Shown: positions 59,397-62,923 of the stretch, piece after piece
Numbering within the stretch: the first letter of the stretch is position 1
Layout: each line of letters opens with the position of its first letter
Assembly (NCBI GenBank): GCA_035041965.1
Contig: JAPYMA010002941.1
Coordinates: 119,451 to 183,450, forward strand
Length of the DNA: 64,000 nt
Source: Anisakis pegreffii
Lineage: Eukaryota; Nematoda; Chromadorea; Rhabditida; Anisakidae
Direction of reading: 5' to 3'
Translations under genes and position numbers: made by a program
The notes under the pieces: generated by a model
What the model saw: only the letters and a program-made list of their open reading frames with translations
What the model was told of the DNA's origin: nothing
The model's database searches: none

Positions 59397-62300
59397 ATGG
59401 AATGTGACAAAACCGAGCCGAAGTTACCACAAAAGAAGTTCTATCGGCAACGCGCTCACGCCAATCCGATATCCGACCACGATTTGGTATATCCCATCTC
59501 ACCGAAGCAGTTCGTTTTTATTTATTAATATAATATTTATTATCAATAATAATAAGTAATATGATAATATTTTAAATGTATTTGTTAATAGTGATAAATA
59601 ACAGGGTTAATTGGAGTGACTACTTCGAGAATTTCACAGAAGAATCGAGAGTGGAATTCGTAGATATCGGGTGTGGATACGGCGGTCTTTTGGTGAGGTT
59701 GGCTGAGTTGTTTCCCGAGAAGTTTAGTATTGGCTTTGAAATTAGAGTGAAGGTTGCTTGCTTTTATTTATTTTATTTATTATGTATATAATATTTATTA
59801 TGTGTATAATATTTATTATGTATATTTATTTTAATGGATGATTAAGGTGAGTGATTTTGTCGTGGACCGAATCAAAGCTCTACGAGCAGTTGCAAATGAA
59901 AATGAAGAGCAGTTGATAAAATACACGAACATCAACTGCATCCGAACGAACGCGATGAAGTATCTGCCGAATTACTTCTGCAAATCGCAACTCTCGAAAA
60001 TATTCTTCCTCTACCCCGATCCACACTTCAAGAAATGCAAATTTAAGTGGCGTATTATATCGCCGATGCTGATCGCTGAGTACGCGTTCGTTTTGAGAGC
60101 GGGTGGTGAGTGTTTTGCGTTGATTTATTCGTTTATGGAGCGGGTGGTGAGTGTTTTGCGATGATTTGTTCGTTTATGGAGCGGGTGGTGAGTGTTTTGC
60201 GTTGATTTATTCGTTTATGGAGCGGGTGGTGAGTGTTTTGCGTTGATTTATTCGTTTATGGAGCGGGTGGTGAGTGTTTTGCGTTGATTTATTCGTTTAT
60301 GGAGCGGGTGGTGAGTGTTTTGCGTTGATTTATTCGTTTATGGAGCGGGTGGTGAGTGTTTTGCGTTGATTTATTCGTTTATGGAGCGGGTGGTGAGTGT
60401 TTTGCGTTGATTTATTCGTTTATGGAGCGGGTGGTGAGTGTTTTGCGTTGATTTATTCGTTTATGGAGCGGGTGGTGAGTGTTTTGCGTTGATTTATTCG
60501 TTTATGGAGCGGGTGGTGAGTGTTTTGCGTTGATTTATTCGTTTATGGAGCGGGTGGTGAGTGTTTTGCGTTGATTTATTCGTTTATGGAGCGGGTGGTG
60601 AGTGTTTTGCGTTGATTTATTCGTTTATGGAGCGGGTGGTGAGTGTTTTGCGTTGATTTATTCGTTTATGGAGCGGGTGGTGAGTGTTTTGCGTTGATTT
60701 ATTCGTTTATGGAGCGGGTGGTGAGTGTTTTGCGTTGATTTATTCGTTTATGGAGCGGGTGGTGAGTGTTTTGCGTTGATTTATTCGTTTATGGAGCGGG
60801 TGGTGAGTGTTTTGCGTTGATTTATTCGTTTATGGAGCGGGTGGTGAGTGTTTTGCGTTGATTTATTCGTTTATGGAGCGGGTGGTGAGTGTTTTGCGTT
60901 GATTTATTCGTTTATGGAGCGGGTGGTGAGTGTTTTGCGTTGATTTATTCGTTTATGGAGCGGGTGGTGAGTGTTTTGCGTTGATTTATTCGTTTATGGA
61001 GCGGGTGGTGAGTGTTTTGCGTTGATTTATTCGTTTATGGAGCGGGTGGTGAGTGTTTTGCGTTGATTTATTCGTTTATGGAGCGGGTGGTGAGTGTTTT
61101 GCGTTGATTTATTCGTTTATGGAGCGGGTGGTGAGTGTTTTGCGTTGATTTATTCGTTTATGGAGCGGGTGGTGAGTGTTTTGCGTTGATTTATTCGTTT
61201 ATGGAGCGGGTGGTGAGTGTTTTGCGTTGATTTATTCGTTTATGGAGCGGGTGGTGAGTGTTTTGCGTTGATTTATTCGTTTATGGAGCGGGTGGTGAGT
61301 GTTTTGCGTTGATTTATTCGTTTATGGAGCGGGTGGTGAGTGTTTTGCGTTGATTTATTCGTTTATGGAGCGGGTGGTGAGTGTTTTGCGTTGATTTATT
61401 CGTTTATGGAGCGGGTGGTGAGTGTTTTGCGTTGATTTATTCGTTTATGGAGCGGGTGGTGAGTGTTTTGCGTTGATTTATTCGTTTATGGAGCGGGTGG
61501 TGAGTGTTTTGCGTTGATTTATTCGTTTATGGAGCGGGTGGTGAGTGTTTTGCGTTGATTTATTCGTTTATGGAGCGGGTGGTGAGTGTTTTGCGTTGAT
61601 TTATTCGTTTATGGAGCGGGTGGTGAGTGTTTTGCGTTGATTTATTCGTTTATGGAGCGGGTGGTGAGTGTTTTGCGTTGATTTATTCGTTTATGGAGCG
61701 GGTGGTGAGTGTTTTGCGTTGATTTATTCGTTTATGGAGCGGGTGGTGAGTGTTTTGCGTTGATTTATTCGTTTATGGAGCGGGTGGTGAGTGTTTTGCG
61801 TTGATTTATTCGTTTATGGAGCGGGTGGTGAGTGTTTTGCGTTGATTTATTCGTTTATGGAGCGGGTGGTGAGTGTTTTGCGTTGATTTATTCGTTTATG
61901 GAGCGGGTGGTGAGTGTTTTGCGTTGATTTATTCGTTTATGGAGCGGGTGGTGAGTGTTTTGCGTTGATTTATTCGTTTATGGAGCGGGTGGTGAGTGTT
62001 TTGCGTTGATTTATTCGTTTATGGAGCGGGTGGTGAGTGTTTTGCGTTGATTTATTCGTTTATGGAGCGGGTGGTGAGTGTTTTGCGTTGATTTATTCGT
62101 TTATGGAGCGGGTGGTGAGTGTTTTGCGTTGATTTATTCGTTTATGGAGCGGGTGGTGAGTGTTTTGCGTTGATTTATTCGTTTATGGAGCGGGTGGTGA
62201 GTGTTTTGCGTTGATTTATTCGTTTATGGAGCGGGTGGTGAGTGTTTTGCGTTGATTTATTCGTTTATGGAGCGGGTGGTGAGTGTTTTGCGTTGATTTA

Positions 62301-62923
62301 TTCGTTTATGGAGCGGGTGGTGAGTGTTTTGCGTTGATTTATTCGTTTATGGAGCGGGTGGTGAGTGTTTTGCGTTGATTTATTCGTTTATGGAGCGGGT
62401 GGTGAGTGTTTTGCGTTGATTTATTCGTTTATGGAGCGGGTGGTGAGTGTTTTGCGTTGATTTATTCGTTTATGGAGCGGGTGGTGAGTGTTTTGCGTTG
62501 ATTTATTCGTTTATGGAGCGGGTGGTGAGTGTTTTGCGTTGATTTATTCGTTTATGGAGCGGGTGGTGAGTGTTTTGCGTTGATTTATTCGTTTATGGAG
62601 CGGGTGGTGAGTGTTTTGCGTTGATTTATTCGTTTATGGAGCGGGTGGTGAGTGTTTTGCGTTGATTTATTCGTTTATGGAGCGGGTGGTGAGTGTTTTG
62701 CGCTGTTATGCATGCAGCAGATTTATTATTTTTTAATAAATATAAACTATATTCAGGAATCGTATACACTCTGACTGACGTGAAGGAATTGAGCGAGTGG
62801 ATCGTGAAGCATTTCAACGCGAGTAAATTGTTTAGGGAAATAGTTATAGATGATGAAGCGGTCAGAAGGGACCGTATAATAGAGTTATTATTAACGGACG
62901 ATCCGAGTGAGGAGGGCAAGAAG
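59397..62923 (+). CDS. METTL1: tRNA (guanine-N7-)-methyltransferase catalytic subunit, last exon not found
   Basis: Exons on the plus strand: 59397-59509, 59605-59752, 59847-60105 and 62757-62923; 229 codons in consistent phase. METTL1/Trm8 acts with WDR4/Trm82 to make m7G46 in tRNAs, using S-adenosylmethionine. Conserved blocks are FYRQRAHANP and DHDLVYP (residues 15-33), the SAM loop EFVDIGCGYGGLL (55-67), IGFEIRVK, RTNAMKYLPNYF, and the catalytic LYPDPHFKKCKFKWR (142-156) with Asp145. Exon 4 gives IVYTLTDVKELSEW and ends at SEEGKK with a GTGAGT donor. The family continues about 30 residues beyond this, and no matching exon is seen before 64000. The ATG is one base after an AATAGCAG acceptor, suggesting trans-splicing. 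Intron 3 is 2651 bp and almost wholly a 41-bp minisatellite; introns 1 and 2 are only about 95 bp. Confidence 0.93.
60099..62702 (+). repeat. 41-bp minisatellite, about 63.5 copies, in METTL1 intron 3
   Basis: The unit starts GCGGGTGGTGAGTGTTTTGC and continues GTTGATTTATTCGTTTATGGA; period 41 bp. Sixty-three full units (60099-62681) plus 21 bp. As far as can be read, all units are identical except the second, which has A at 60161 and G at 60168. The first unit begins inside exon 3, so each unit carries the last bases of the exon (GCGGGTG) followed by the GTGAGT donor. The G-rich segment GGAGCGGGTGG recurs in every unit. Confidence 0.97.

Follow-up and report, generated by a model that had tools for sequence, protein, structure and literature searches.

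The METTL1 locus and its intronic array

The window (the whole stretch of 64,000 nucleotides of DNA analysed here) carries at its right end, on the + strand, a METTL1 gene whose four exons join into an open frame of 229 amino acids (Table 1); the exon borders were set by homology and splice-site signals, that is, from the sequence alone. The first-pass annotation had named the gene METTL1, and this identity is borne out by the Pfam domain Methyltransf_4 in the product (E 1.9e-44), by the human METTL1 chain, which aligns with residues 7-229 of the predicted protein (E 2.7e-73), and by the matches to nematodes, Ascaris (61%) and Acanthocheilonema (61%) being the closest relatives (best among those named). 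A protein search of the assembly (122.7 Mb, 1,740 contigs) places METTL1 at a single locus, as it returned four matches, all of them exons of this gene. The final exon is missing because the contig terminates at the last base of the window, about 1.3 kb downstream of the array described below; a motif look after 62924 gave no candidate for it. Introns 1 and 2 are 95 and 94 nt long.

Intron 3 opens with an array of 63 complete 41-bp units and a partial 64th, which places 64 donors before one acceptor, the AG of which ends at 62756. The donor reads GTG/GTGAGT (the slash marks the exon border) at 64/64 positions, just as the first-pass annotation had described. TRF calls the array at 60087-62702 with a period of 41 bp, 63.8 copies, 99% matches and a score of 5202, the top score among 28 rows in the window. 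The second unit is the only complete one that differs from the rest. The partial unit begins with the donor at 62689 and runs to 62702, after which a different intron sequence follows. The copy number of 64 is that of one assembly. A search for the unit elsewhere in the genome had been proposed as a check; two array units were run against the assembly DNA, in a search that passes over very common words, and gave 32 matches at one candidate place, METTL1 itself. G and T make up 81% of the array. We considered whether the array encodes a protein and rejected this, as stops occur within three units in each of the six frames. Over window positions 60001-64000 the strands are asymmetric, the GC skew being +0.63 and +0.55 and the AT skew -0.54 and -0.34.

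One could argue that the array in reality consists of few, or of more varied, units, which were inflated or homogenised by assembly and polishing. The letter identity of 62 of the 63 complete units and the nearness of the contig end speak for this, and the identity could partly be an effect of polishing. However, the edges of the array retain their differences (unit 2 and the exon copy), other arrays keep internal variation (e.g. L013 4077-4308, with 82% matches), and the four-unit array in a GH31 gene, which is discussed below, has an internal C/T variant. An array that owes its form mainly to the assembly is, in our judgement, improbable.

Table 1. Positions in the window of the METTL1 exons and of the parts of the intron 3 array
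Feature	Position	Strand	Basis
METTL1 exon 1 (starts ATG; ends GCA/GTTCGT)	59397..59509	+	joined open frame, homology
METTL1 exon 2	59605..59752	+	joined open frame, human METTL1 alignment, assembly protein search
METTL1 exon 3 (end GCGGGTG/GTGAGT)	59847..60105	+	joined frame, homology
Exon 3 tail, likely source of the 19 exonic nt in the unit (16/19 identical)	60087..60105	+	TRF, comparison
Array with 64 donors (63 complete units of 41 bp, then a partial one of 14 nt)	60106..62702	+	TRF, unit count, pattern scan
Donor 1 (GTGAGT), sole one of 64 predicted to keep METTL1 in frame	60106..60111	+	frame test
Unit 2, sole differing complete unit, 2 substitutions	60147..60187	+	unit comparison
Last donor to acceptor, 68 nt; probable ancestral intron	62689..62756	+	
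METTL1 exon 4, then GTGAGT; contig stops before last exon	62757..62923	+	joined frame, homology

Splicing outcomes and donor choice

We joined exons 1-3 to exon 4 from every one of the 64 donors. Only donor 1 is predicted to keep the frame open, and the other 63 all lead to a stop after residue 192. Shifts by multiples of three are no exception, as unit 2 holds a TGA, which is the stop encountered on read-through from donor 3 on. The first-pass annotation had proposed that most of the later donors would truncate the enzyme; the truncation stands, but it concerns all 63 of them. That the only locus found encodes an intact and conserved enzyme speaks for the use of donor 1. On the other hand, where donors are equal the one closest to the acceptor is often preferred, and the last donor gives an intron of ordinary size (68 nt versus 2,651 nt from donor 1), so that donor 1 is not an obvious choice.

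In the predicted RNA structure donor 1 does not clearly stand out. At 37 C the nucleotides of donor 1 have a mean unpaired probability of 0.242, against 0.236 in donors 3-62 and 0.199 in donor 64, and at 20 C the corresponding values are 0.219, 0.173 and 0.165; the slightly greater openness of donor 1 predicted at 20 C could matter for the donor choice. A fold of four units gave z -2.57 against base shuffles (1/200 as good), and a fold of six units gave z -0.64 against tandems of shuffled units (47/200 as good). An RNA structure that hides donors 2-64 was considered and rejected, since six units are ordinary when compared with the shuffled-unit tandems and donor 1 is close to the middle donors at 37 C.

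A different explanation would be a competition, in which the later donors draw U1 snRNP and the acceptor away from donor 1; a share of the METTL1 transcripts that depends on array length would then be truncated and lost, and this would set the levels of METTL1 and of tRNA m7G. The arrangement invites such a reading: identical donors in large number face one acceptor, 63 of the 64 outcomes share one stop, and the 68-nt intron of the last donor is nothing out of the ordinary. Also, the introns of C. elegans contain a dispersed 24-base minisatellite, CeRep25B, which is enriched in the vicinity of multiple alternative splicing according to the available part of the report (PMC4039745). However, METTL1 is seemingly a single-locus gene with a conserved frame, and the lancelet mirages, which are minisatellite-like repeats across exon-intron boundaries, reportedly do not interfere with regular splicing, as far as the accessible text of the two accounts goes (PMC3087553, PMC3902484). 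The first-pass annotation had suggested that METTL1 splicing, and tRNA m7G with it, could be tuned through the copy number of the array; the suggestion is not supported, as the lancelet precedent points the other way and the predicted structure leaves donor 1 not clearly apart. We consider such a competition of donors unlikely, and we give an equally small chance to its extension, in which the array length sets the tRNA m7G capacity and differs among individuals or even somatic cells.

According to the reading that we prefer, splicing would join donor 1 to the single acceptor, so that the whole array is removed; whichever of donors 2-64 a slip led to, the mRNA would carry an identical premature stop and is expected to be degraded. 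We infer that donor 1 dominates, that the slipped products decay and that the array is largely passive. Most likely the array has no function and is a fast-growing junction repeat that is removed with the intron.

Origin of the array and junction repeats elsewhere in the genome

The 41-bp unit consists of 19 nt of exon tail and 22 nt of intron head and is contiguous with exon 3. The first-pass annotation had recognised in it a copy of the exon 3/intron 3 boundary, which is correct, but had given the exon part as the seven bases GCGGGTG; in fact the likeness extends over all 19 nt, and upstream of them the match is lost. The fact that the unit spans both exon and intron bases indicates that the array grew from the junction itself. 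Exon 3 encodes Leu-Arg before Ala-Gly-Gly, human METTL1 has Leu-Arg-Val-Gly-Gly at this place, and the array copies would not encode Leu-Arg; the exon is therefore the likely parent, from which the copies drifted. The exon stretch that precedes the unit ends in GCG, as does the partial unit that closes the array; this is perhaps a trace, if a weak one, of microhomology at the first duplication.

The starting event would be a short tandem duplication across the METTL1 exon 3/intron 3 boundary, with exon bases on one side and the beginning of the intron on the other. The intron from the last donor resembles introns 1 and 2 in length, which points to growth of the array at the head of an originally short intron. 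From about 68 nt, this intron would then have been lengthened to 2,651 nt with the coding sequence unchanged, and the growth to 64 donors would have proceeded probably via unequal exchange or replication slippage. The near-identity of the units implies recent growth or homogenisation, a point on which we agree with the first-pass annotation. With a nematode mutation rate of 2.7e-9 per site and generation, the 2,542 identical bases would receive one substitution per about 146,000 generations, a figure that is a poor clock because homogenisation or assembly polishing is possible.

A second clear junction array of the same build is present in contig C63 (L032, G000:C63:1200-2600), at about 598-830, in a gene identified as GH31 by PF01055 (E 2.7e-15). 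Its 52-bp units contain 14 nt of exon tail and adjoin the exon end. Four donors (L032: 612, 664, 716 and 768) share one acceptor, the frame is kept by donor 1 only, and the intron measures 62 nt from the last donor versus 218 nt from the first.

Given two such arrays, one might suppose that a genome process amplifies 5' splice sites into arrays and that METTL1 belongs to a functional class of them. The genome was scanned with four patterns of GTRAGT-type donors at 26-56 nt spacing, each against a reversed-pattern control, which is rough because the hexamer in reversed form occurs about 3 times as often (753 versus 237 sites in 244 kb, made up of the window and 18 stretches). By this rough control, pairs of GGTGAGTV (V = A, C or G) exceed their reversed pattern with 90 versus 65 (complete listing), and pairs of AGGTRAGT with 116 versus 105 (100 of the 116 places listed). 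However, METTL1 itself provides 63 of the 90 GGTGAGTV places, and one 33-bp repeat family provides 91 of the 100 AGGTRAGT places listed. The two other patterns fall below the same rough control: triple GTRAGT with 539 (329+210) versus 1,346 (696+650) reversed, the places being listed in part, and pairs of GGTAAGT with 45 versus 261 (complete listing). A genome-wide excess of donor arrays is thus not clear. The arrays that were read are those of METTL1 and C63 and six others, the arrays of C40/C587/C746, C233, C59, C225, C1108, C1230 and others being left out; the clear junction arrays are 2 of these 8, and judged by eye the arrays of C187, C93, C136, C831, C1578 and C1179 have no clear exon junction. 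A look through the 244 kb for further near-tandem duplications, with at least 8 identical bases ahead of a GTRAGT site and 10 from that site on, found none. That donor arrays form a functional class therefore appears very improbable to us, even more so than the alternatives weighed above. The array of C93 resembles a coding repeat on the other strand.

Homogeneous minisatellites (15-100-bp period, at least 3 copies, 95% matches) are not rare, with 4 non-overlapping arrays in 18 contig-start 10-kb stretches, a sample that may lean towards repeats; the landing of a few on exon ends would be unsurprising. Long near-perfect ones also exist apart from METTL1: in L019 (G000:C1000:1-10000), at 6-1287, a 35-bp unit is present in about 33-37 copies with 99-100% matches.

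Comparison with known boundary repeats and its meaning

The lancelet mirages are found in Adh3, globins, troponin C and PGBD5 and show length instability; their units in Adh3 measure 10-72 bp, and two haplotypes of the globin BflGb6 carry 6 and 3 units, respectively, with 81-100% identity, according to the available portions of the reports (PMC3087553, PMC3902484). The METTL1 array is like them, as they are described there, in that tandem boundary copies carrying splice signals stand beside the genuine exon. Its anatomy is that of a mirage: the unit crosses a genuine boundary, every repeat carries the donor signal, and the units appear to evolve in concert while the edges differ (unit 2; exon copy 3/19 different), a pattern to which polishing may contribute. 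In contrast to the mirages of these accounts, the METTL1 array has a nematode-like host, lies in METTL1 and combines 64 donors of near-perfect identity; the lancelet repeats occur at both 5' and 3' boundaries, whereas the METTL1 array is on the donor side.

Three further systems may be compared, each to the extent that the accessible text of its source describes it. Human internal tandem repeats at exon-intron boundaries have units of about 30 bp, repeated about 4 times, and are connected with novel introns in duplicated genes (PMC2812944); they are likewise boundary minisatellites of recent expansion, but the METTL1 array enlarges one existing intron. CeRep25B is, like the METTL1 array, an intronic minisatellite in a nematode, and a splicing link has been proposed for it, but it is dispersed and without a splice-junction origin, whereas the METTL1 unit is junction-derived and found at one locus (PMC4039745). 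In the intron gain described by Rogers (1989, cited in PMC3087553), AG/GT proto-splice sites are duplicated in tandem, so that here, too, the duplication takes in a splice site; in METTL1, however, the junction is repeated and the old intron lengthened with no intron at a new position, and only the original junction is predicted to keep the frame.

No nematode precedent for a junction-derived array was recognised in the literature searched, which consisted of titles and the beginnings of abstracts with few subscription journals, and where the primed spelling "5' splice site" was possibly missed. The kind of boundary repeat is known, although the first-pass annotation had not identified the array as one of this kind; within this literature the host lineage, the gene and the copy number look new. 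In decoy exons and intron detention (e.g. OGT), extra intronic splice sites might engage the spliceosome unproductively. The METTL1 array differs from such decoy exons, as it has donors only and no good acceptor is evident by eye in the unit.

Taking these comparisons together, we think it quite probable that the METTL1 array is a recent and extreme minisatellite of the mirage type, which is derived from the junction, mostly passive and spliced out from donor 1. This reading gains from the intact METTL1 frame, from the GH31 array and from the other near-perfect minisatellites of the genome. The array can be regarded as a natural experiment in 5' splice-site choice, in which 64 identical donors stand before one acceptor and a single choice makes the protein; the donor that is used would show whether transcription order and exon context, or the distance to the acceptor, decides. 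Boundary-spanning minisatellites are hereby extended from lancelets to a nematode-like genome, with the smaller GH31 case in addition, and the METTL1 array suggests a route by which an intron may lengthen fast while the coding sequence stays unharmed.

Several other repeats and one gene were seen along the way. A 33-bp tandem family with AG/GTGAGT in each unit is present at G000:C40:12048-16246, C587:286575-288859 and C746:27-9175, and judged by eye it may be a coding repeat, its period being a multiple of three. A near-perfect 33-bp repeat with GTGAGT per unit is found on two contigs, at G000:C233:11470-12861 and C59:4599-6469. In L031 (G000:C187:52500-53900), at about 290-1120, there is a 36-bp array, in which no exon was recognised; GTAAGT follows right after TTCA in its middle units, and the edge units have AATAAGT. 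L035 (G000:C496) contains at about 2-1503, on the - strand, pieces of COX1 in several reading frames (invertebrate mitochondrial code), and these split frames may reflect genuine frameshifts, a copy in the nuclear genome or errors of the assembly. In a protein search, a COX1 piece gave matches of up to 94% among the best 120 rows. The window itself also holds an ATA repeat at 43352-43593 (80.7 copies, 75% matches), a CAGGCT repeat at 11554-11661 (18 copies, 87% matches) and a TTA repeat at 63326-63433 (35.7 copies, 88% matches).
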